From Martelella radicis (GTDB taxonomy: Bacteria; Pseudomonadota; Alphaproteobacteria; Rhizobiales; Rhizobiaceae), in assembly GCF_014196625.1 (NCBI RefSeq), contig NZ_JACIDZ010000013.1, forward strand, positions 1 to 64,000: a DNA stretch of 64,000 nt. The letters are read 5' to 3'. This document shows, one piece after another, positions 20,606 through 30,691 of this stretch. A program made the position numbers and the translations under genes. Below the pieces are notes generated by a model. The model was not told the DNA's origin, did no database searches, and saw only the letters and a program-made list of their open reading frames with translations. Within the stretch, counting starts at the first letter, position 1. Each line of letters begins with the position of its first letter.

Positions 20606-21499
20606 CTAGGATCGGCCTGCTTCTTTGGACCGCACGGTTGAAAAAACCATTTCGCGAAACCAGCGCTGTTGCGGATCGGCGTCCAGTCTTGGATGCCACA
20701 TGGCGGATATTGTGATCCCGGGCACCCGGACCGGTAGCGGGACCTCGATCAGATCATCACTCAGGACAGACGCCGGGATTTGCGCCACGAGATCCGACCG
20801 GCGCGCGACATCCATCGCATCTGGGAAGCCGGCCACTACCGCCACAATTCTGCGGGAAAGCCCCAATTCTGCCAGAGCCTGATCAACAGGACCCGCCCAC
20901 AGGCCTCGGCGCGATGCGACGACATGCAGGCAATTGGCGAACCGCTCCGGCGTCACCGGACCGCTCAGCAACGTGTGGCCAGGGCGCACGGCGGCAATGA
21001 AGCGGTCCTGGAAGAGCGCGCGGGTTCGGATTTCCGGAGCGAACGCACCAAGCACGCCGATTTCGAGGTCAACGGCACCCTCGCGAAGCAGCGTTGCATC
21101 CTTCGCCGGCTTTGACGCCATAAGAAGCCGGGCCTGGGGAGCCGCTTCCTGCATCTTGACGATCAGAGCTGCCGCAAATCGGTGGAAAAACCCCTCATTG
21201 GCACGGAGCGAAAAGGCCCGGTTCAATGCCGCAGGATCGACCTTGCCAGACAGTGGGGCGAGAACAGCGCTGACTTCGGCAAGAAGGCCCGACACCCTAT
21301 CGCCGAGTGCCACGGCATGAGGTGTCGGCACCATACTCATTCCAGCCCTGACGAACAGAGGGTCCCCGGTGGCCGTCCTCAATCGCGACAAGTTTCTGCT
21401 CATCGCAGAGACACTCAGACCAAGCCGTTCGGCCGCCTGAGTGACGCTGCCTGTCTCGAGAAGCGCATCCAAGGCACGCAACAGGTTCAGATCGATCAT
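20606..21499 (-). CDS. LysR-family transcriptional regulator
   Basis: The 297-residue protein begins with the LysR helix-turn-helix (LNLLRALDALLETGSVTQAAERLGLSVSAMSR split over residues 4-35, with TQAAERLGLS as the core). An effector-binding domain follows from ~90. It is transcribed away from the SDR gene at 21627 with a 127-base gap, the usual arrangement in which a LysR protein controls its divergent neighbour. The likely targets are the SDR and the amidohydrolase at 29705, which were next to each other before the transposon entered. The ligand is unknown. Confidence 0.9.
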   Translation of the reverse strand: MIDLNLLRALDALLETGSVTQAAERLGLSVSAMSRNLSRLRTATGDPLFVRAGMSMVPTPHAVALGDRVSGLLAEVSAVLAPLSGKVDPAALNRAFSLRANEGFFHRFAAALIVKMQEAAPQARLLMASKPAKDATLLREGAVDLEIGVLGAFAPEIRTRALFQDRFIAAVRPGHTLLSGPVTPERFANCLHVVASRRGLWAGPVDQALAELGLSRRIVAVVAGFPDAMDVARRSDLVAQIPASVLSDDLIEVPLPVRVPGITISAMWHPRLDADPQQRWFREMVFSTVRSKEAGRS

Positions 21500-21626: not shown

Positions 21627-22074
21627 ATGAAACGCATTCTCATCATCGGCGCCTCCCGCGGCATCGGCCTTGCCGCGGCGGAGGAATTCGCGACCCGTGG
21701 CTGGCACGTCACCGGAACTGTCCGCGGTACAGCCAAGACCCCTCTTCATGATTTGCGCACGGCGAGGCCGACTGCCATCGATATCGCTTCGGTGGATATT
21801 ACAGACCGGGATCAGATCACGGCGTTACACCAGCAACTGAAAGGTCAGAGCTTCGACATCCTGCTGGTGAATGCTGGTACCGCCAACACCAACCAGAACG
21901 AAACGATCGCGGAAACGACCACGGAAGAATTCACGCGTGTCATGGTGACCAATGCGCTGAGCCCGATGCGGGTGGTCGAAGCCCTGAGCGATCTGGTGAT
22001 GCCGGAGGGGGACAATCGCTGTCATGTCTTCCGGACAGGGCAGCGTCGCGGAAAATACCAAAGGCGGCCATGAG
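21627..22074 (+). pseudogene. 5' part of an SDR oxidoreductase gene, frameshifted and split by a transposon
   Basis: The frame opens with the NAD(P)-binding motif IGASRGIGLAAAEEF and continues through LLVNAGTANTNQ, typical of short-chain dehydrogenases. At a run of five G (22007-22011) the frame shifts. Reading one G fewer restores GTIAVMSSGQGSVAENTKGG. The gene is then interrupted at 22074/22075 by the Tn3-family element. The catalytic Y-x3-K half lies on the far side, at 29461-29700. The ribosome site GGAGA precedes the ATG. With both lesions it cannot make the full enzyme. Confidence 0.85.
22070..22074 (+). repeat. Left 5-bp target-site duplication (ATGAG)
   Basis: ATGAG lies immediately left of the left inverted repeat and is repeated immediately right of the right inverted repeat. 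Tn3-family elements duplicate five bases. Removing the element and one copy restores the SDR reading frame exactly (GGC GGC CAT GAG GTC TAT). Confidence 0.9.
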
Positions 22075-22112
22075 GGGGTCGTTTGCAGGACGGGGCGGAA
22101 TCCTACGCTAAG
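22075..22112 (+). repeat. Left terminal inverted repeat of the Tn3-family element
   Basis: The 38 bases start GGGGTCGTTTGCAGGACGGG and end CCTACGCTAAG, the typical ends of Tn3-family inverted repeats. They overlap the stop codon of tnpA by a few bases. The inverse copy is at 29418-29455. Confidence 0.92.
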
Positions 22113-24993
22113 GTTTCGGCCAACGATATTCTCCGGTGAGATTGATGTGTTCCCAACCGAGCGGCGAGACATGGGCCAGTAAATCGGGTGATAACGGCTT
22201 TCCGGCTCGTTTCTGGTTGGCGACGGCTTCGCCGAGCTTCATGGTGTTCCAGAAGATGATGATGGCGGCGAGCAGGTTCATGCCGGCAATACGGTAGTGC
22301 TGCCCTTCTGCCGAACGGTCGCGGATTTCACCTCGCCGATGGAAGCTGATAGCCCGTTTCAGCGCGTGATGCGCTTCGCTTTTGTTAAGACCGATCTGGG
22401 CGCGGCGTTGCAGATCGGCATCCAGAATCCAGTCGATCATGAACAAGGTCCGCTCGACGCGGCCAACTTCCCGCAAGGCTGTGGCCAGTTCGTTTTGCCG
22501 TGGATAGGAGGCAAGTTTGCGCAGGATCTGGCTTGGCGCAACGCTTCCGGCTGCAATGGTGGCGGCGATACGCAGGATGTCAGGCCAATTGCGCTCGATC
22601 ATGGCCTGGTTGATCTTGCCTCCGATTAAACGGCGCAGATGAGCTGGTGCTGTCGATGGATTGAACGCATAGAGCCGTTTGGATGGCAGGTCCCGGATAC
22701 GAGGAGCGAACCGGTAGCCGAGAATGGCGCATGCAGCAAAGACGTGATCGGTGAAGCCTCCCGTGTCAGCGAACTGCTCGCGGATATGACGGCCAGCATC
22801 ATTCATGAGTAGGCCGTCAAGGATATAGGGAGCTTCGCTCGCTGTCGCGGGAATCATCTGGGTCGCGAAAGGTGCGTATTGATCGGATACGTGGGTGTAA
22901 GCTTTCACACCCGGTGTATTGCCGTATTTCGCGTTGACCAGGTTCATGGCCTCGCCTTGCTCTGTCGCCGCGAAGAATTGCCCGTCGCTCGAGGCCGAGA
23001 CACCCGCGCCCCAGAATTGCGCCATAGGTAACGCCGCCTGCGCCTCGACCACCATGGCCAGCGCCCGATCGTAGGCCTCGCCCTCGACATGCCACCGCCC
23101 AATGCGGATCAATTCCCAGAAGGTGTGGGTATTGGTCGCATCTGCCATCTTCCGAAGGCCGAGATTGATCCCCTCCGCGAGAATGACGTTCATCAGTCCA
23201 ATCCGATCGGCGCAGGGCGCTCCCGTGCGCAGATGGGTGAAGGCTTCGCAGAAACCGGTTGCAGCTTCCACCTCAAACAGGATGTCGGTAATCCGCGTAG
23301 ACGGGACCTGCTTATAGAGATCGAGAACCATATCCTCGCCACCAGACGGCGCGGCGGCTTCGAGCTTCTCGATATGCAGGACGCCGTTCTCGATGGACCC
23401 ACCGGGAATTGTGCCCGCGAGAGCGGCGCGACCAAGCTCGCGTAGCCGTAATTCGAGCCGGGCTTGCCGGTCCGCCAGCCATTCCTCCGGCCGCAATGGC
23501 ACAGCCAGGCGGCCGCTTTCGGCCAACGCCTGCGCCGGCACGAGTGCGTGTTTAAGATCACCATAGCGCCGGGACCTTGCAAGCCAGATATCCCCAGAGC
23601 GGAAGGCATCGCGCAGATGGAACAGGACTGCGATCTCCCAGAGGCGAGTGTCGCCGACCACCTGTGTGCGAAGATGACGATGCCATTTCGAACTCGGGCG
23701 CAAAAAGGCCGTATGCGCGGCATTGTTCAAGCCAGTGCGTAGGGCCGTAACCGCTTCTAGAAGCGGCTGCGCGACCGGCGCAACCCGGAGATCGAGCAGG
23801 CGCAACATGCGAGGAGCATAGCGGCGGAAACGGTGATAGCCGTCCATTACATGGTTGAGGGGATCGTCCGCCATAGTGGCGGTCAGCCTGGCTGCCATCG
23901 TGACAAGGGTTTTGAAGCCGTCCCAGCCTGATCCGCTTGCGATGACGTCGCCCAGCGGCTCCCCATCATCCTGTGCATCGACCAGCGCGCTACCGATTTC
24001 GGCGAAAGATTTCAGGGTGTCGCGCACCGCGTTCGCCTCGTCGGCGACCTTCGCCTGGCAAATACGCTCTGAAGTACGGTAGAGCTTGCCGACGATCCGG
24101 TCATGGGTCTCAACTACCGCGTCGGCGAGCATCGCCTGCCATTCCGCGGAGCAAACAGCCAGAATTGCAAGCCGCCTGTCCTCCGGGAGATCACGCATGC
24201 CATCAGCATAATACCGCTCGCCCTGCCTACGCAGACGTGTCACCCGATGAGCAGGAACACCGGCCAGCAGATTTTCGGGAAGATCCACACGTTGTAGGTA
24301 TTCGAGCCGGTCGAGCAGCCGGTTGGCTGACGAAGAGTTCGACCCCGGCTCGAACTGCCGCAGCCACACGAAGCGCGTTACCCGATCGTCGGCCGTGTCC
24401 TCGAGCAATGCCAGCAACTGTTCCCGGCTGGGCACGGACAGCCGACCTGCGATCCTGGTCTCGATCCGCCGCTCGGCATCGACCAGAGCCGTGGCGCAAA
24501 GACGCTCGATCGTCGATGTCGCGGGAAGGACCGTGCGGGTGCGTCGGCACTCGGCCACGAAGCGGATGGCTATATCCTCGTTCGACACCGCCATCTCGGC
24601 TTCCCGAAACAGCCATTCCTTTAGCTCTCGCGCACCGCGTCCGGAGAAGGTGCGGAATCGGTAGAGCGTCCGCAACTCTGCAAGATGCTCATGTCGCGTT
24701 TCTTCACGGGAGGCATAGTCAATTAGATCGTCGGAATGCAGGCCGAGCTGCGCTCCGATAAATTCAACGACCTCCGCCGGTATCATCTCGCCAGGCGCCA
24801 GTACCCGGCCGGGATGGCGGAGGACACACAATTGGAGAGCAAAGCCAAATTTGTTGTGAGCGCGCCGGCGCTGCCTGATATGGCCGAGATCCTCATCGCT
24901 CAGCGTGTAGTGCCTCAGCAAATCCGCCTGTGAAGTCGGCAGGCGCAACAGTTCATCCTTCTGCCGATCGGTTAGAGTGACGCGACGCGGCAT
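22108..24993 (-). CDS. tnpA: Tn3-family transposase TnpA
   Basis: The 961-residue transposase has the usual length for the family. The N-terminal DUF4158 part begins PRRVTLTDRQKDELLRLP and includes RRAHNKFGFALQLCVLRHPG. The DDE catalytic half has the first acidic residue in SASSDGQFF, and the last lies in the helix around KLGEAVANQKRAGKPL. TnpA cuts at the terminal repeats and joins them to the target, giving a cointegrate and five-base duplications. The gene is full length and its stop lies inside the left inverted repeat, so the element could still be active. Confidence 0.96.
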   Translation of the reverse strand: MPRRVTLTDRQKDELLRLPTSQADLLRHYTLSDEDLGHIRQRRRAHNKFGFALQLCVLRHPGRVLAPGEMIPAEVVEFIGAQLGLHSDDLIDYASREETRHEHLAELRTLYRFRTFSGRGARELKEWLFREAEMAVSNEDIAIRFVAECRRTRTVLPATSTIERLCATALVDAERRIETRIAGRLSVPSREQLLALLEDTADDRVTRFVWLRQFEPGSNSSSANRLLDRLEYLQRVDLPENLLAGVPAHRVTRLRRQGERYYADGMRDLPEDRRLAILAVCSAEWQAMLADAVVETHDRIVGKLYRTSERICQAKVADEANAVRDTLKSFAEIGSALVDAQDDGEPLGDVIASGSGWDGFKTLVTMAARLTATMADDPLNHVMDGYHRFRRYAPRMLRLLDLRVAPVAQPLLEAVTALRTGLNNAAHTAFLRPSSKWHRHLRTQVVGDTRLWEIAVLFHLRDAFRSGDIWLARSRRYGDLKHALVPAQALAESGRLAVPLRPEEWLADRQARLELRLRELGRAALAGTIPGGSIENGVLHIEKLEAAAPSGGEDMVLDLYKQVPSTRITDILFEVEAATGFCEAFTHLRTGAPCADRIGLMNVILAEGINLGLRKMADATNTHTFWELIRIGRWHVEGEAYDRALAMVVEAQAALPMAQFWGAGVSASSDGQFFAATEQGEAMNLVNAKYGNTPGVKAYTHVSDQYAPFATQMIPATASEAPYILDGLLMNDAGRHIREQFADTGGFTDHVFAACAILGYRFAPRIRDLPSKRLYAFNPSTAPAHLRRLIGGKINQAMIERNWPDILRIAATIAAGSVAPSQILRKLASYPRQNELATALREVGRVERTLFMIDWILDADLQRRAQIGLNKSEAHHALKRAISFHRRGEIRDRSAEGQHYRIAGMNLLAAIIIFWNTMKLGEAVANQKRAGKPLSPDLLAHVSPLGWEHINLTGEYRWPKP

Positions 24994-25119
24994 TCATGTT
25001 CCTTTTTCAAAATCCGACGGTGTTAAAGATGCTTTGTTTATGAAGCTGGTATGAGATACATTTCCAGTGAACAAATCATCCATGGCTCGCCCGCCGCCTC
25101 AAACCAACGTTTAAGAAAC
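24994..25119. promoter_or_regulatory. tnpA-tnpR intergenic region, probable res site
   Basis: In Tn3-family elements with divergent tnpA and tnpR, the resolution site lies between them and also holds both promoters. This 126-base AT-richer gap fits. It contains short inverted sequences, for example GTAT-GAG-ATAC at 25049-25059 and AAAC-CAAC-GTTT near 25101-25112. The three resolvase subsites were not resolved by eye. Confidence 0.5.
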
Positions 25120-25734
25120 ATGCTGATCGGATATGCCCGTGTCTCAAAAGCTGATGGCTCGCAATCGCTCGACCTGCAGCACGACGATCTGCGCGCCGCC
25201 GGCGTCGAGCAGGAAAACATCTATGAGGATCGCGCTTCTGGCACTTACGATGATCGGCCAGGTCTGGCAGCCTGCCTGAAAGCTTTGCGCGATGGCGATG
25301 TGCTGGTGGTCTGGAAGCTTGATCGCCTCGGGCGGTCGCTTGCTCACTTGGTCAATACCGTGAAGGATCTGTCGGAACGCAATATCGGTCTGCGGGTGCT
25401 GACCGGGAAAGGCGCTCAGATCGACACCACGACCGCATCAGGCCGCATGGTGTTCGGTATCTTCGCTACCTTGGCCGAGTTCGAGCGGGATTTGATCCGT
25501 GAGCGCACCATGGCCGGGCTTGCCGCCGCCAGAGCCCGTGGTCGCAAGGGGGGGCGAAAATTCGTCCTGACCAAAGCGCAGGTGCGTCTTGCCCAGGCCG
25601 CCATGGCCCAGCGCGACACTTCCGTTTCCGATCTGTGCAACGAACTCGGGATTGAGCGCGTCACATTGTATAGATATGTAGGTCCGAAGGGCGAACTTCG
25701 GGACCACGGGAAGCGCGTTCTCGGCTTGGTGTAG
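25120..25734 (+). CDS. tnpR: Serine resolvase TnpR
   Basis: The ATG at 25120 gives a 204-residue resolvase beginning LIGYARVSK. An earlier in-frame start at 25051 would add 23 unrelated residues in the presumed res site. The catalytic serine is in the YARVSKADGS segment. The arginine-rich catalytic region includes DRLGRSLAHL, and the E helix includes FGIFATLAEFERDLIRERT. A C-terminal helix-turn-helix (VSDLCNELGIERVTLYRYV) binds the res site. TnpR resolves cointegrates made by TnpA. Confidence 0.95.
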   Translation: MLIGYARVSKADGSQSLDLQHDDLRAAGVEQENIYEDRASGTYDDRPGLAACLKALRDGDVLVVWKLDRLGRSLAHLVNTVKDLSERNIGLRVLTGKGAQIDTTTASGRMVFGIFATLAEFERDLIRERTMAGLAAARARGRKGGRKFVLTKAQVRLAQAAMAQRDTSVSDLCNELGIERVTLYRYVGPKGELRDHGKRVLGLV

Positions 25735-25825
25735 GGTTTCGCGCCATCCCGCAAACTTCCCCTATATAGCTGTCCTGGGATAAAGGACAGACCACGTCCG
25801 GTGTCCCTGGCCCTGGATGTCCGGG

Positions 25826-26263
25826 TCAGGCGCGGGGCGTAATCGGCAACTTGCGGGTCCGGCCCCAGACGACGAAGGCGGCGATGGCCAGCGCGATCAT
25901 ATTCATCGGCAGGACTTCGATCTCACCCCGGTAAATATGAAAGGCGATCGCCAGGATCTGAATGGCGACGAAGCCGAGCGCCGCGAGAGGCGTCAGGGAG
26001 GGTTTGATGCGCGTCAGTGCCGGAAGAAGGATGCCAATCGTCCCGGCGAGCTCGCAAATGCCAATGAAGCGCAGCAACAGGAACGGAATCTGGGTGGCAT
26101 AGTTCAAACCCATGGCCGGCAACGCGTCCGGGGGCATGAATGTCTTCAAAGTGCCGGCGAAGCCGTAGAAGACTGCGAGGAGGATCTGCGCGGCCCACAG
26201 GCCGATCTGCCATTTGAATTGATTGGGCCGCAACGAAGCGCTGCTATTGGCAATACTGGACAT
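25826..26263 (-). CDS. DoxX-family membrane protein
   Basis: Starting at the ATG at 26263 (MSSIANSS), the protein has 145 residues and four hydrophobic helices. The family pattern shows in LLAVFYGFAGTLKTF at the start of the first helix, RFIGICELAGTIGILLP in the second, and two further helices to the end. DoxX proteins are small membrane oxidoreductase partners tied to thiol or quinone redox balance. The gene is the last of three minus-strand cargo genes behind pirin, which suggests a shared stress response. The start is not certain; an upstream M at 26296 is possible. Confidence 0.8.
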   Translation of the reverse strand: MSSIANSSASLRPNQFKWQIGLWAAQILLAVFYGFAGTLKTFMPPDALPAMGLNYATQIPFLLLRFIGICELAGTIGILLPALTRIKPSLTPLAALGFVAIQILAIAFHIYRGEIEVLPMNMIALAIAAFVVWGRTRKLPITPRA

Positions 26264-26331
26264 TGTCTGTTCCTTTGATTGTGCGATTGATGGCAAATCG
26301 GGCTACTGGGCGCGCCGCTAAGAAGGCCGCC

Positions 26332-26988
26332 TCAGTAAGCGACGCCGATCTGCGCCCTGTGGCGGGTCGGGCTCTCGATCTCGTCGAGGACCGCACGGGC
26401 ATAGTCGATGCCGCTGATCGCCGATTTTCCGTTCTCGTCGAACAACGCGACGTCGTCGCCGATCCGGTAGCGGCCGAGATCCTCGCCCGGCTGCCAGGCC
26501 GAGAATTCCATGGCCGGCGACACGAACAGCCAGTCGACCCCGGTCGTATCGGCGAGAAGGTTGTTCAGGACGTCCAGATTCTCCATTGCCTCGGCGACAA
26601 CCTCGGCAGGAACCTCAGCCGGGAAGCTCTCGCCCTCCAGCATGCGCGGCGCGCCCGCCGTGCGCCGCAGGCAGGAGAACCCACCGACCAGGACGAGGCG
26701 AGCGCCCGCATCCGCGGCCTGCTTCGCCAGATCCGCATAGACCTTCACGAGAGCGCCCTTGTTGGCCCCACGTGGGGAGAACGCGCCGACGATGACATCG
26801 GCGTCGGCGATCGACGCGCCCGCGCCCTCGACGCCGGACGCGACATAGGTGACGTCCGGGATCGGCTCTGCGGGCACGGACCGGCTGACCGAGGTCACCT
26901 GATGGCCGCGCTTTATCGCTTCGCGCGCAATCGCCGAACCGGCATAGCCGGTCCCGCCGATGACCGTGATTTTCTTGGATGCAGTCAT
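26332..26988 (-). CDS. NAD(P)-binding oxidoreductase (atypical SDR/NmrA-like)
   Basis: The 218-residue protein opens with a Rossmann motif, KKITVIGGTGYAGSAIARE, and continues with HQVTSVSRSV and LVLVGGFSCLRR. It lacks the classical Y-x3-K active site, as expected for atypical SDRs of the NmrA/YwnB type that act as redox sensors or quinone/NADPH reductases. A GGAGTT ribosome site precedes the start. It lies between the DoxX and pirin genes in the same direction. Confidence 0.85.
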   Translation of the reverse strand: MTASKKITVIGGTGYAGSAIAREAIKRGHQVTSVSRSVPAEPIPDVTYVASGVEGAGASIADADVIVGAFSPRGANKGALVKVYADLAKQAADAGARLVLVGGFSCLRRTAGAPRMLEGESFPAEVPAEVVAEAMENLDVLNNLLADTTGVDWLFVSPAMEFSAWQPGEDLGRYRIGDDVALFDENGKSAISGIDYARAVLDEIESPTRHRAQIGVAY

Positions 26989-27055
26989 AATGGAACTCCT
27001 GTTTTGATTTGTGTTCGATGGTAAAGCAGCAGCGATTTCCAGGGGAGTGCGCCTG

Positions 27056-27898
27056 CTAGACAGGCTCCAGCCGGCCCATCTGACCCGACTGGAAGCGCAG
27101 GCGAGCGCTCCGGATACCGGCCGCGTCGTTCATGATGAAAGGCCCCTCGGCGAACACGGGCTCATTAAGTGCCGGTCCGGACAGCAACAGGGCATGCACG
27201 ACCCCTCCGGCGGAGCTGAGACGCACCTCTCCCGTGCCGGAGATCGCAATTGCCGTCTCCGACGGCAGACGATGCACTTTCTCCTCGATCACGACGTCGA
27301 GTTGGCCTTCGAGGACGTAGATGACGCTGTTTTCGCCGCTGGCGAGGGGATAGGCGACCTGGCCGATCAGGAAGGCGTCGAGGATGCTGTACGGCTCGAC
27401 CGGCTCGATCGGAGAACGGACATTGCCGAAGCCGCCGACCAGAACGCGAATGCGGTCGCCGGCCTCATTCCGCCATTCCGGAACCTGTGAGGAGAGCATG
27501 TACATCGTCTTCGGATCTGCGAGCTTGTTGCTCATGCTGAGATTGACATAGATCTGCGCCCCATGCAGTTCGCTGCCGGGCACCGCCGGCACCTCCTGAT
27601 GTTGCGCGCCGCGTCCCGCCTGCAGCCAGACAATGCCGCCCGGACCGATCTCCAGGTCATTGCCGAGGGAGTCGCGGCTACGCAGCGCCCCTGGCGAGTC
27701 CTCGAAAATATAGGTTATGGCTGAGAAGCCGGCATGCGGATGCGGCCCGAAGGGCTGACCGGACACACGGAAATTATCGAGCAGCGCGAGTGGTGCAGCG
27801 AGGCCATTCATCCGCTCAAGGCCGATGGCATTGACCGAGAATATGCCACCGCTGCTGTGGCGGCGCGCTTGGACGATTTCGGACACTTGCGTGGCCAT
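27056..27898 (-). CDS. Pirin-family protein (quercetinase-like cupin)
   Basis: The 280-residue protein has two cupin domains. The first carries the metal-binding residues of pirins: HPHAGFSAITY (two His) and, further on, GAQHQEVP (His, Glu). A second jelly-roll domain follows from ~160 (NSVIYVLEGQLDVVIEEKV). Pirins are iron-binding proteins, some with quercetin 2,3-dioxygenase activity, often induced by oxidative or electrophile stress. The gene is the first of the minus-strand cargo and diverges from LysR with a 95-base gap that contains palindromes. Confidence 0.9.
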   Translation of the reverse strand: MATQVSEIVQARRHSSGGIFSVNAIGLERMNGLAAPLALLDNFRVSGQPFGPHPHAGFSAITYIFEDSPGALRSRDSLGNDLEIGPGGIVWLQAGRGAQHQEVPAVPGSELHGAQIYVNLSMSNKLADPKTMYMLSSQVPEWRNEAGDRIRVLVGGFGNVRSPIEPVEPYSILDAFLIGQVAYPLASGENSVIYVLEGQLDVVIEEKVHRLPSETAIAISGTGEVRLSSAGGVVHALLLSGPALNEPVFAEGPFIMNDAAGIRSARLRFQSGQMGRLEPV

Positions 27899-27962
27899 GA
27901 CTTCACCTCATGATTTGTGAAGCCGTTATCATCCGTTGCGTGCTATCGGACAATCCTATATG

Positions 27963-27984
27963 TTTCGATATCATGTATCGGAAA
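27963..27984. promoter_or_regulatory. Probable LysR operator between pirin and lysR
   Basis: CGATA-TCATG-TATCG (27966-27980) is a perfect five-base inverted repeat extended to TTTCGATATCATGTATCGGAA, and it fits the T-N11-A pattern bound by LysR proteins. It sits 14 bases before the lysR start, where binding would repress lysR and control pirin. A second pair ATCG...CGAT spans 27945-27969. Confidence 0.5.
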
Positions 27985-27993
27985 TATCATTAG

Positions 27994-28893
27994 ATGATCG
28001 ACGGCTTTTCCCTTGATCAGCTGCGAACCTTCGTGGCCGCGGCCGATACCGGCAGCTTTTCTGCAGCGGGACGGCAGCTTGGCCGGGCACAGTCGGTCGT
28101 CAGTCAGACGGTCGCCAATCTCGAGAGCCTGATCGGTGTCGCGTTGTTCGACCGGAGCGCCCGCTATCCTGTGCTGACCAAGCAGGGGCGGGCGCTGCTC
28201 GAGCAGGCACGAGCAGTCACGGGGGCAATGGATCAGTTCAAGGCGAGCGCACGAGGCTTGTCGGATGGCTTGGAGCCGGAACTCAGTGTCGTGATCAACG
28301 TCCTTTTTCCGACCCGCGTGCTGACGGAGGCGGTGGCCGGCTTCCAGATGCGATTCCCCGATACGTCGCTGCGCATTTCGGTGGAGGGACTGGGCGCCGT
28401 GCTCGAACTGGTTCTCGATGGAACCTGCGCGTTTGGTATCCGCGGTCCGATCGGCGGAGCGCACCCCGATCTCGGCAGCGAATACTTGCTGCAGGTCGGC
28501 TATCAGATGGTCGCCGCGCCCTGTCATCCGCTGGCGCATTACCGTGGCCCGATTCCGACCAAGACGCTCGGGCAGCATGTTCAGCTGGTTCTGTCGGACC
28601 GTTCCAAGCTGACAGAGGACAAGGATTTTCGCGTTTTTGCACCGAAGACCTGGCGACTCTACGACCTTGGTGCAAAGCACGCGTTGTTGAAGGCGGGGCT
28701 CGGCTGGGGCGGGATGCCGGTCGAGGTCATCCGTGATGATCTCGATAGAGGCCTTTTGGTTCCGCTTGAGATTGCCGACATGACGATCGCCTCAAACATT
28801 ACCATGTCAGCGATCTACCGCACGGATACGCCACCCGGTCCCGCCGGCCGCGGCCTCATCGAGGAGCTAGTAAAGGCATCGTCGCGGCCTTGA
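27994..28893 (+). CDS. LysR-family regulator of the transposon cargo
   Basis: The 299-residue protein starts with a LysR helix-turn-helix (FSLDQLRTFVAAADTGSFSA; AAGRQLGRAQSVVSQTVANL) and has an effector domain with the RVLTEAVAGFQMRFPDTSLR segment. It is divergent from the pirin, NAD(P)-binding and DoxX genes and most likely regulates them. The ligand may be an electrophile or aromatic compound, judged only from the target genes. Confidence 0.88.
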   Translation: MIDGFSLDQLRTFVAAADTGSFSAAGRQLGRAQSVVSQTVANLESLIGVALFDRSARYPVLTKQGRALLEQARAVTGAMDQFKASARGLSDGLEPELSVVINVLFPTRVLTEAVAGFQMRFPDTSLRISVEGLGAVLELVLDGTCAFGIRGPIGGAHPDLGSEYLLQVGYQMVAAPCHPLAHYRGPIPTKTLGQHVQLVLSDRSKLTEDKDFRVFAPKTWRLYDLGAKHALLKAGLGWGGMPVEVIRDDLDRGLLVPLEIADMTIASNITMSAIYRTDTPPGPAGRGLIEELVKASSRP

Positions 28894-29417
28894 GGGGCGT
28901 CTGATCGCCCGGATTGCGGCTCGGCCCACGAACGGGCATCAACGAGCCGACCGCGCAGTAGCAGCGATCGGAGCTTGCGAGGAATGCAACGGTCTCAGCC
29001 TGCCTTGGTCGCCTTGGTTCAACTGAGCAAATTCTCGAACAGTTCGGGTGTGAAGAGCTCATACACGGCCATGAAGTCGCTGCCGCGGATATGGATGGCC
29101 TCCCACGCATTAGCGGTAGGTGGTTCGCCAAGGATCATACGCAGATGTTCGAAGCCCCGCGCGCCGACGACCCAATCGAAGGCAACGAAGGCTGCCGCCT
29201 TTTTTATGAACAGCTTGCATGCCAGTCGGAATGCGAAAAAAACCTATGGCTCCGCGCCGAGATCCATCCAACCCGCTGAATAGAGGGTGCCGCTACACTG
29301 CCATAGTCGGCTGGCAGGTAGCGGGCGACATTTACGAACTGCCCCATGGGAGCCTGAAGCGCGACCGATCTCTCCTCAGGCTTGATGGTGTTGAGCGCGT
29401 CCTAATCCTAGCCCGAG
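28894..29417. other. Right arm of the transposon with no intact gene
   Basis: This 524-base stretch between the cargo LysR and the right inverted repeat holds no complete gene. Its only coding-like part is a minus-strand open frame at 29019-29243. The codons there are balanced and the frame lacks a start, which points to the end of a decayed gene captured earlier. Confidence 0.5.
29019..29243 (-). pseudogene. Remnant of an unrecognised gene (C-terminal part)
   Basis: The minus-strand frame runs from just inside a TAG (29244-29246) to TGA at 29019. It contains AAFVAFDWVVGARGFEHL, GEPPTANAWEAIHIRGSDF and VYELFTPELFENLLS. Its composition is protein-like and it ends naturally, but there is no start codon with a ribosome site, and the upstream frame is closed. 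The parent family is not recognised. It could also be chance coding. Confidence 0.3.
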
Positions 29418-29455
29418 CTAAGCGCAGGATTCCGCCCCCTACCGCAACCACCCCC
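29418..29455 (-). repeat. Right terminal inverted repeat of the Tn3-family element
   Basis: The 38 bases start CTAAGCGCAGGATTCCGCCC and end CCACCCCC. Read in reverse complement they match the left repeat at 30 of 38 positions. The ATGAG duplication follows directly. Confidence 0.9.
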
Positions 29456-29460
29456 ATGAG
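29456..29460 (+). repeat. Right 5-bp target-site duplication (ATGAG)
   Basis: ATGAG follows the right inverted repeat and matches the copy at 22070-22074, marking the insertion site in the SDR gene. Confidence 0.9.
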
Positions 29461-29700
29461 GTCTATCGCGGGTCCAAGGCCGCTTTGAACCAGTATATGC
29501 GCAGCTATGCGATCCGCGAGGGTGAAACGCGCCCGATGCTGCTGATCGCGCCTGGCTGGATTCAGACCGAACTCGGCGGCGCCGAGGCCCGCTATACGCT
29601 GGAAGAATCGGCACCGAAGCTCGTGGATCTGGTCTTGGCGCAAGAGGGCCGACCCGGCCTGCGTTATCAGGACCGGGACGGCCGCACAGTGGCTTGGTGA
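29461..29700 (+). pseudogene. 3' part of the split SDR gene
   Basis: The frame resumes with VYRGSKAALNQYMRSYA, the catalytic Y-x3-K segment of short-chain dehydrogenases. It continues through LLIAPGWIQTELGG to a natural stop after GRTVAW. Joined to the piece ending at 22074 it gives one continuous protein apart from the five-G frameshift. It is separated from its start by the 7.4-kb transposon, so it is not expressed as an enzyme. The amidohydrolase begins four bases after its stop and was evidently co-transcribed with it. Confidence 0.88.
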
Positions 29701-29704
29701 ATCC

Positions 29705-30691
29705 ATGAAAATCATTGCGACCGAAGAGCATATGGTAACCCGCGACGTTGCCTACGCCTGGCACGCCCTGGGGTTGGAAGCCTCTGATCCCGGCGTCGCC
29801 TACCATCGGGTGGGCGACATCGAGAAGCGACTGCTCGATCTTTCCGACGGACGGATCGCACGCATGGATGAAGCAGGCGTCGATGTCCAGGTCCTGTCCC
29901 TTACCACGCCCGCACTCCATGATCTGGGTCCTGAAAGTGTTGATATGGCGCGGCGCGTCAACGACGTTCTGGCTGAGGCGCTGCAGCGCCACCCCGACCG
30001 TTTCGAGGCGATGGCAACCCTGCCTGTCGCGCAACCTGAAGCGGCTGCGCGTGAGCTGGAGCGTTGCATCGTGAAGCTCGGCTTCTCAGGCGCCATGCTC
30101 TGCGGACGTGTCGGTGAACGAAATCTCGACCACCCGGATTTCGCACCGATCTTCGAGGTGGCCGGACGGTGCCACGCACCTCTCCTTCTTCACCCGCGTG
30201 TCGCTCCCGGCGCGGTGCGGAGCGCCTGGTTTACAGGGCTGGGAGATCGGGTCGAAATGGCCCTTGCAGGCTACGCGATCGGATGGCACCTGGACGCCGG
30301 CTTCCAGTTTCTGCGCCTGGTCCTTTCGGGACTCTTCGACAGGCACCCCGATCTGCCAGTCATTCTCGGTCACTGGGGCGAACTCGTGCTCTATTATGTC
30401 GACCGACTAGCCTCTGTCGATCGCGTCTCCGGCCTTGATCAATCGCTCGACGCCTACCTGCGCCGGAACGTCTATCTGGGGACCAGCGGAATGTTTTCGT
30501 CCGAGCATCTCCGTCGCGCTGTGGGGATCGTAGGCCCGGATCGTCTCCTGTTTTCCACGGACTATCCCTACCAGTACCGACCAGGGGCAACGGCACGAAC
30601 CTTCATCGAGACATGCGGACTGGAGGGGCGCGAGCTCGAAAACTATGCGTCTGGAAACTGGTTACGGATGAGCGCGGCAATTCTGCGATAA
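29705..30691 (+). CDS. Amidohydrolase-2 family protein (ACMSD / resorcylate decarboxylase-like)
   Basis: The 328-residue protein has the TIM-barrel metal-dependent hydrolase pattern: IIATEEHMV at the start (E/H metal ligands), DEAGVDVQVLSLTTP, a central histidine in PLLLHPRV, VILGHWGELVLYYVDRL and the catalytic aspartate in LLFSTDYPYQY. Relatives decarboxylate aromatic acids or open-chain products. It was the second gene of an operon with the interrupted SDR, controlled by the LysR at 20606. With the transposon upstream it may now lack its promoter or use one from the element. The substrate is unknown. Confidence 0.85.
   Translation: MKIIATEEHMVTRDVAYAWHALGLEASDPGVAYHRVGDIEKRLLDLSDGRIARMDEAGVDVQVLSLTTPALHDLGPESVDMARRVNDVLAEALQRHPDRFEAMATLPVAQPEAAARELERCIVKLGFSGAMLCGRVGERNLDHPDFAPIFEVAGRCHAPLLLHPRVAPGAVRSAWFTGLGDRVEMALAGYAIGWHLDAGFQFLRLVLSGLFDRHPDLPVILGHWGELVLYYVDRLASVDRVSGLDQSLDAYLRRNVYLGTSGMFSSEHLRRAVGIVGPDRLLFSTDYPYQYRPGATARTFIETCGLEGRELENYASGNWLRMSAAILR

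Follow-up and report, generated by a model that had tools for sequence, protein, structure and literature searches.

How did a transposon in the window analysed here, a 64,000-nucleotide stretch of Martelella radicis (positions 1 to 64,000 of the forward strand of contig NZ_JACIDZ010000013.1, assembly GCF_014196625.1), come by the genes it carries? Cargo gain by transposons is usually guessed from finished products; in this case, the element still contains a legible sequence that appears to be its former right end. Positions 22075-29455 form a complete Tn3-family transposon, 7,381 bp between its outer ends, which lies within a gene for a short-chain dehydrogenase/reductase (SDR). We consider it likely that this member of the Tn3434/Tn5393 lineage derives from a 3.69-kb cargo-less unit that switched to a second right end located beyond a LysR-pirin-NmrA-DoxX gene cluster. 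The element is not a new system; it is a new member of an ordinary family with an unusually readable history, in which a readable inner end, cargo-less sister units with direct repeats and a donor-type gene cluster make the individual steps testable one by one. The features concerned are as follows.

20606..21499, minus strand: host LysR regulator, divergent neighbour of the SDR gene (73% amino acid identity in locus L047)
21627..22074, plus strand: left portion of the interrupted SDR gene, delimited by alignment to an intact homologue; its reading frame changes near 22009
22070..22074: left target duplication ATGAG, which pairs solely with the outer right end
22075..22112, plus strand: left 38-bp terminal inverted repeat (IRL), 36/38 against the lineage form
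22108..24993, minus strand: tnpA, a 961-aa Tn3-family DDE transposase, by its match to NF033527 and alignment with Tn4430 TnpA
24994..25119: the 126 bp between the divergent tnpA and tnpR, presumed res region, placed by analogy with an excerpt of PMC7157771
25120..25734, plus strand: tnpR, a serine resolvase (PF00239, 2e-46; matches to gamma-delta and Tn3 resolvase structures)
25725..25762, minus strand: probable inner relic of a former right end, overlapping the last 10 bp of tnpR
25826..26296, minus strand: DoxX_2-family membrane protein (PF13564, 5e-19)
26332..26988, minus strand: NmrA-like NAD(P)H-binding protein (PF13460/PF05368; 87% amino acid identity to Bosea locus L043)
27056..27898, minus strand: pirin-family bicupin (PF02678, PF05726; matches to solved pirin and pirin-like structures)
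27994..28893, plus strand: LysR-type regulator, divergent from the pirin gene (PF00126, PF03466; 92% amino acid identity to Bosea locus L043)
29022..29243, minus strand: weakly supported remnant of a decayed NAD(P)H-dependent oxidoreductase (tblastn, 35-41% to annotated genes of 4 plasmids, best E 3e-4)
29418..29455, minus strand: outer right 38-bp terminal inverted repeat (IRR), which served as the right end in the present insertion, 32/38 against the lineage form
29456..29460: right target duplication ATGAG
29461..29700, plus strand: right part of the split SDR gene (60% amino acid identity to the intact SDR of L047)
29705..30691, plus strand: host amidohydrolase (Amidohydro_2), downstream partner of the SDR gene (77% amino acid identity in L047)

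The outer boundaries are defined to within one base. IRL and IRR, which start with GGGG and have the length of about 38 bp usual in the Tn3 family, are identical at 30 of 38 positions, and this identity drops off past 38 bp; when the element interior was resampled 200 times under a first-order Markov model, matches to IRL reached at most 26/38, with a mean of 21.3. ATGAG is found on both sides, a target duplication of the 5 bp (sometimes 6 bp) expected for the family, although the left junction can be read either as ATGAG followed by four terminal Gs or as ATGAGG followed by three; both readings lead to an identical empty site. The initial annotation had proposed these repeats, these duplications and the 7,381-bp length, all of which we confirm, and both repeats also resemble other Tn3 ends, as their scores against the lineage form indicate. 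Its statement that both ends look intact is correct for the outer pair and overlooked a third, worn end at 25725-25762. Neither this inner end nor the cargo figured in its description.

The core of the element is typical of its lineage. TnpA, close to the 1,000 residues usual for DDE transposases of the Tn3 family, matches the NCBIfam Tn3 transposase NF033527 nearly end to end (998 bits, for a cut-off of 500) and aligns with the sequence of the Tn4430 TnpA structure over residues 6-958. Its residues D670, D743 and E873 fall on D679, D751 and E881 of Tn4430, positions that we take to be the catalytic triad of Tn3-family transposases. The tnpR reading frame is open from 25051, with the start set at 25120 on the basis of annotated relatives of 615 bp, and its product contains a resolvase domain; both genes are therefore intact, as first described. 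Core DNA was 85.0-89.4% identical in the 40 listed of 4,132 matching plasmid records, and an Agrobacterium plasmid relative has 93% identity in TnpA and 89% in core DNA. These close relatives, with divergent TnpA and TnpR and the same end sequence, place the element in the Tn3434/Tn5393 lineage. The core was detected in 24 of 297 sampled genomes of the host family (E <= 1e-100, own genome included), with 65-87% identity when the own genome is excluded, and at the same threshold a class-wide search of 385 sampled genomes returned no genome but the own one. The idea that the whole element is already present in plasmid records was rejected, as in no record did a single place cover 80% or more of the query.

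The feature that bears on the origin of the cargo is the third end. It was returned by a scan for end-like sequences, has the orientation of a right end and begins in the last tnpR codons. It matches IRL at 29/38 positions and the right end of cargo-less relatives, located at the same position, at 31/38; in the part outside tnpR, it agrees with the lineage end at 22 of 28 bases. The right-end score was equalled by 2 of 3,000 random 38-mers from a 13-kb region that includes the three ends, and chance was rejected as an explanation from the end-scan, random 38-mer and Markov scores together. The inner end is followed by TATAT, and ATGAG pairs IRL only with the outer right end, so the last unit to move was core plus cargo. 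A third 38-bp end in the same orientation, between core and extension, is the arrangement of Tn1721-type elements, here with a worn sequence. When the query was extended to 29520, homology to the core went past 25800 in none of 25 relative loci: it stopped at 25762 or 25763 in 16 of them, at 25755-25767 in another 3, and at 25724-25735 (approximately the start of the inner end) in 6. The 25 loci are 33 locus identifiers less 7 second copies of the same place and less L060, which had no match.

Relatives without cargo end at this very spot. We scored 18 of 22 loci at the inner-end position, excluding L097, L100, L101 and L102 for a broken core or a different resolvase, and found a near-perfect end (36-38/38) after tnpR in 10 (L082-L085, L092, L093, L095, L096, L098 and L099). 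The left end is also present in 9 of these 10, giving eight cargo-less units of 3,687-3,703 bp as well as L099, of 4,421 bp, which has one extra gene before tnpR. Direct repeats stand exactly at the ends of the cargo-less unit in L084 (TTAAC), L099 (AACCT), L115 (TGATG) and, with six bases, L085 (CTTGTA); the lack of such repeats in the other cargo-less loci points to rearrangement, age or incompleteness. The 10 loci with a near-perfect end showed no outer right end in the sequence covered, which extends between 0.7 and about 14 kb past tnpR. Because the inner 38-mer lies exactly where the cargo-less relatives terminate, the element of the window reads as a cargo-less unit extended to a new right end. 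The additional gene of L099 (5029-5754 of G096 C20) is a 241-aa open reading frame between tnpA/res and tnpR, by eye an S-adenosylmethionine-dependent methyltransferase; other Tn3 elements carry toxin-antitoxin pairs in this position.

Of the 18 loci, five yielded an outer right end, and none of the five has an intact inner end: it shows wear, deletion or replacement, with inner-spot scores of 31/38 in the window, 19 in L088, 18 in L089, 18 in L090 and 25 in L094. L094 (G028) is 14.9 kb long and has CATGT repeats at its outer ends, and its inner end is interrupted by a 5-bp gap; L088 (Agrobacterium pAt1D1460) spans 5.55 kb between ATATA repeats and has an inner end that is no longer recognisable. 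The Tn5393-type loci L089 and L090 have the outer right end without matching repeats; since they share the strA-strB lineage, the five loci represent four lineages at most. Eight further plasmid loci that have the 3' end of tnpR together with a right end, taken from the 40 listed of 79 matching records, showed no outer right end with matching repeats within their stretches; they were chosen for their inner end, so this comparison serves as a test for counter-examples only. In L094 (G028 C26, 141000-160500), which is of Tn3434/Tn5393 type, the cargo labelled by eye includes sugar-transport, GMC-type oxidoreductase and aldehyde-dehydrogenase-like genes, tnpA seems broken, and a tnpA 3' remnant appears to lie beside the outer end as in Tn1721.

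We therefore favour an origin in which the element would have started as a Tn3434-type tnpA-tnpR unit lying next to the genes it later captured, on whose far side stood another Tn3-type right end. TnpA would then have bound the left end and this outer right end, skipping the unit's own right end, and the whole 7.4 kb would have been copied into the SDR gene by replicative transposition, after which TnpR would have resolved the cointegrate at res. With the inner end now presumably weak or dead, core and cargo would travel together. A wider version of this idea is more tentative, and we put it forward as a possibility with the odds somewhat against it: Tn3434/Tn5393-type transposons may generally grow outward by end-jumping, TnpA using the left end together with a stray right end on the far side of neighbouring host genes, and the new cargo would be locked in only once their own inner right end had worn out or been deleted. 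The element of the window, the 14.9-kb element of G028 and the Agrobacterium LysR-transporter element would then be snapshots of one series. In a Sphingobium plasmid (L052, 6001-6042), a 38-mer with 36/38 identity to the lineage end lies near resolvase and Tn3 transposase genes; this match recurs in other Sphingobium records, which are possible donors of stray right ends.

Relatives preserve the host locus without the insertion. In G222, of the same genus (locus L047), LysR, a continuous 228-aa SDR gene and the amidohydrolase gene follow one another in order without the element, and the window flanks align across the insertion point with this intact SDR; it is the empty site with a continuous SDR gene that the initial annotation had recommended looking for in related genomes. 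The same three genes are unbroken in G201 (L048), at 57-61% identity. From this uninterrupted order in G222 and G201, we conclude that LysR, SDR and amidohydrolase evidently formed one locus, which the element split. The initial annotation had called it a catabolic locus; its unity stands, and the gene families suggest a catabolic role. In G037 and G052, LysR is beside the amidohydrolase and the SDR has no match (E <= 1e-6). DNA of the SDR end and amidohydrolase is present in 2 of 13 genus genomes, the own one and G222, and an empty site closer than G222 was rejected, as the locus DNA was found in G222 alone among the 12 other genus genomes. When window frames of at least 150 aa (10-45 kb) were compared with 19 kb around the G222 locus (E <= 1e-25), the three locus genes matched, together with only one antisense frame over the same DNA, so the locus has a different neighbourhood in G222. 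The insertion would separate the amidohydrolase from a promoter shared with the SDR.

The two SDR halves had been described as joining without interruption, which holds near the insertion. Compared with the intact homologue, however, the left half keeps to the ATG frame only until about 22010; from about 22009 up to the insertion point it aligns in a different frame, and the in-frame junction of the halves is therefore a local one. This frame change is independent of the transposon and is either a real lesion or an assembly error. It could mean that the SDR was already a pseudogene when the transposon arrived and that the insertion cost the cell little, which we regard as possible though not the better bet: the departure from the ATG frame is what such a history would leave, but the right half otherwise reads through and aligns as far as its stop codon, so that decay is little advanced, a short base run is a usual site of assembly errors, and the order of frame change and insertion is not readable from a single genome.

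One may also ask whether the element is now an immobile fossil. The 30/38 agreement of its outer ends and the 32/38 score of the right one against the lineage form point in this direction, as does its rarity. A multi-copy element was rejected, a single copy being found in the own genome, where the only other match, 200 bp at 69%, falls within the gene of a distant Tn3-type transposase elsewhere on the contig; in 12 other genus genomes (E <= 1e-20), the only match is one of 239 bp at 71% in G685. On the other hand, according to an excerpt of PMC4133298, ends of TIME elements with 29-30/38 identities moved in trap-plasmid tests, and here neither TnpA nor TnpR is truncated and the two target duplications have not diverged, so we consider an immobile state unlikely. 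The distant transposase gene (L051, 11980-14883, at about 131979-134882 of the contig) has 34% amino acid identity, and one end-like 38-mer lies near it.

Several observations weigh against the switch to a second right end. Of 18 loci in which an end follows tnpR and no outer end was found, made up of the 10 near-perfect-end loci and the 8 further plasmid loci, only 4 have direct repeats, and some relative stretches reach just 0.7-3 kb beyond tnpR, so that a farther outer end could escape. The four Tn5393-type loci (L086, L087, L089 and L090) score 18-19/38 at the inner spot, a level matched by 0.4-8% of random 38-mers with gaps allowed, which leaves a former end unsupported in these loci, and L112, with a worn inner end (27/38) and no outer end found, fits neither class. 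The outer right end of the window is itself divergent from the lineage form and the inner end scores 30/38 against that form, so similarity alone cannot show that the inner end is dead, and the score of the latter is inflated by its last 10 bp, which are tnpR coding sequence. Lastly, no tnpA remnant accompanies the outer end, unlike in Tn1721. The converse history, in which the outer right end is original, the cargo was inserted between it and tnpR by recombination or exchange with another transposon, and the inner 38-mer is leftover tnpR-adjacent sequence or a scar, draws on the imperfect and partly coding inner match, the missing tnpA remnant, the barely end-like Tn5393-type loci and the attribution of modular gain to recombination at AT-rich seams in the consulted part of a Paracoccus study (PMC3281130), but seems improbable given that the inner 38-mer lies exactly at the near-perfect-end spot of 10 of 18 loci and the homology stop of 16 of 25, that most of its bases outside tnpR fit the lineage end, and that cargo-less units with direct repeats exist.

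The element has relatives or counterparts among known systems, compared here partly through excerpts of the cited papers. Tn3434/Tn3434a is a cryptic, cargo-less tnpA-tnpR transposon of Paracoccus, of 3,695 bp with 38-bp ends (PMC3281130). Its length is within the range of the cargo-less units described above, whereas the element of the window adds 3.69 kb of cargo past the right end of the unit and uses an outer right end; Tn3434 was compared by description. Tn5393 has the same divergent tnpA and tnpR with cargo downstream of tnpR, and the core of the window is 85-86% DNA-identical to that of the four strA-strB plasmid loci. However, the cargo differs, and Tn5393 is described with 81-bp ends (PMC3281130) as opposed to 38 bp here; the 81-bp inverted repeats and strA-strB of Tn5393 proper are thus both lacking. 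Tn1721 has a parallel layout, in which a basic transposon (Tn1722) is prolonged by an extension on its right side and a third end shares the orientation of the others of its kind (PMC5756416, PMC5736529). As far as those excerpts describe it, the Tn1721 inner end equals the outer one and a truncated tnpA lies at the third end, whereas the inner end of the window is worn. An outer end accompanied by a duplicated tnpA end was rejected for the window, as 25763-29460 contains no truncated second tnpA and no tnpA/tnpR match better than E 0.2. TnPpa1, TIME-COMP and other Tn3-family mosaics likewise mobilise genomic DNA between Tn3-type ends, but they are described as built from two element copies (PMC3281130, PMC4133298), whereas the window shows one recognisable extra 38-bp end.

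Tn5393 is known for its resistance genes, and the cargo here is of another kind. Based on its gene families, the LysR-controlled pirin/NmrA/DoxX set is predicted to serve a response to quinones or other electrophiles. Positions 26328-28893 are 81.6% DNA-identical to a LysR-pirin-NmrA cluster on a 298-kb, presumably chromosomal contig of a Bosea metagenome-assembled genome (L043), the pirin-LysR intergenic stretch being identical at 68 of 95 positions, and TnpA had no match (E <= 1e-6) in 20.8 kb of this contig. In view of this 82% DNA identity, the cluster likely came from Hyphomicrobiales. The closest pirin proteins are metagenome entries (92% and 88%), followed among named organisms by Prosthecomicrobium, Bosea, Prosthecodimorpha and Rhizobium. 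A pirin pattern scan of 84,980 species genomes, which finds close relatives only, gave two loci, in Bosea and in delta proteobacterium NaphS2. That the cargo is common in the class was rejected, as only the own genome of 385 sampled contained it (E <= 1e-60). The tail at 28894-29417 has no Pfam family apart from a chance-level match (E 0.74), and in the literature searched no paper joined 'pirin' and 'Tn3 family transposon'. A LysR-pirin-DoxX version, in which an NmrA match is not recognisable, occurs in the Methylosinus plasmid pMSC49c (L045, 2923-5611), which suggests that the LysR-pirin-DoxX set is a recurring module. In that plasmid, a small annotated 4Fe-4S protein gene lies between the pirin and LysR genes.

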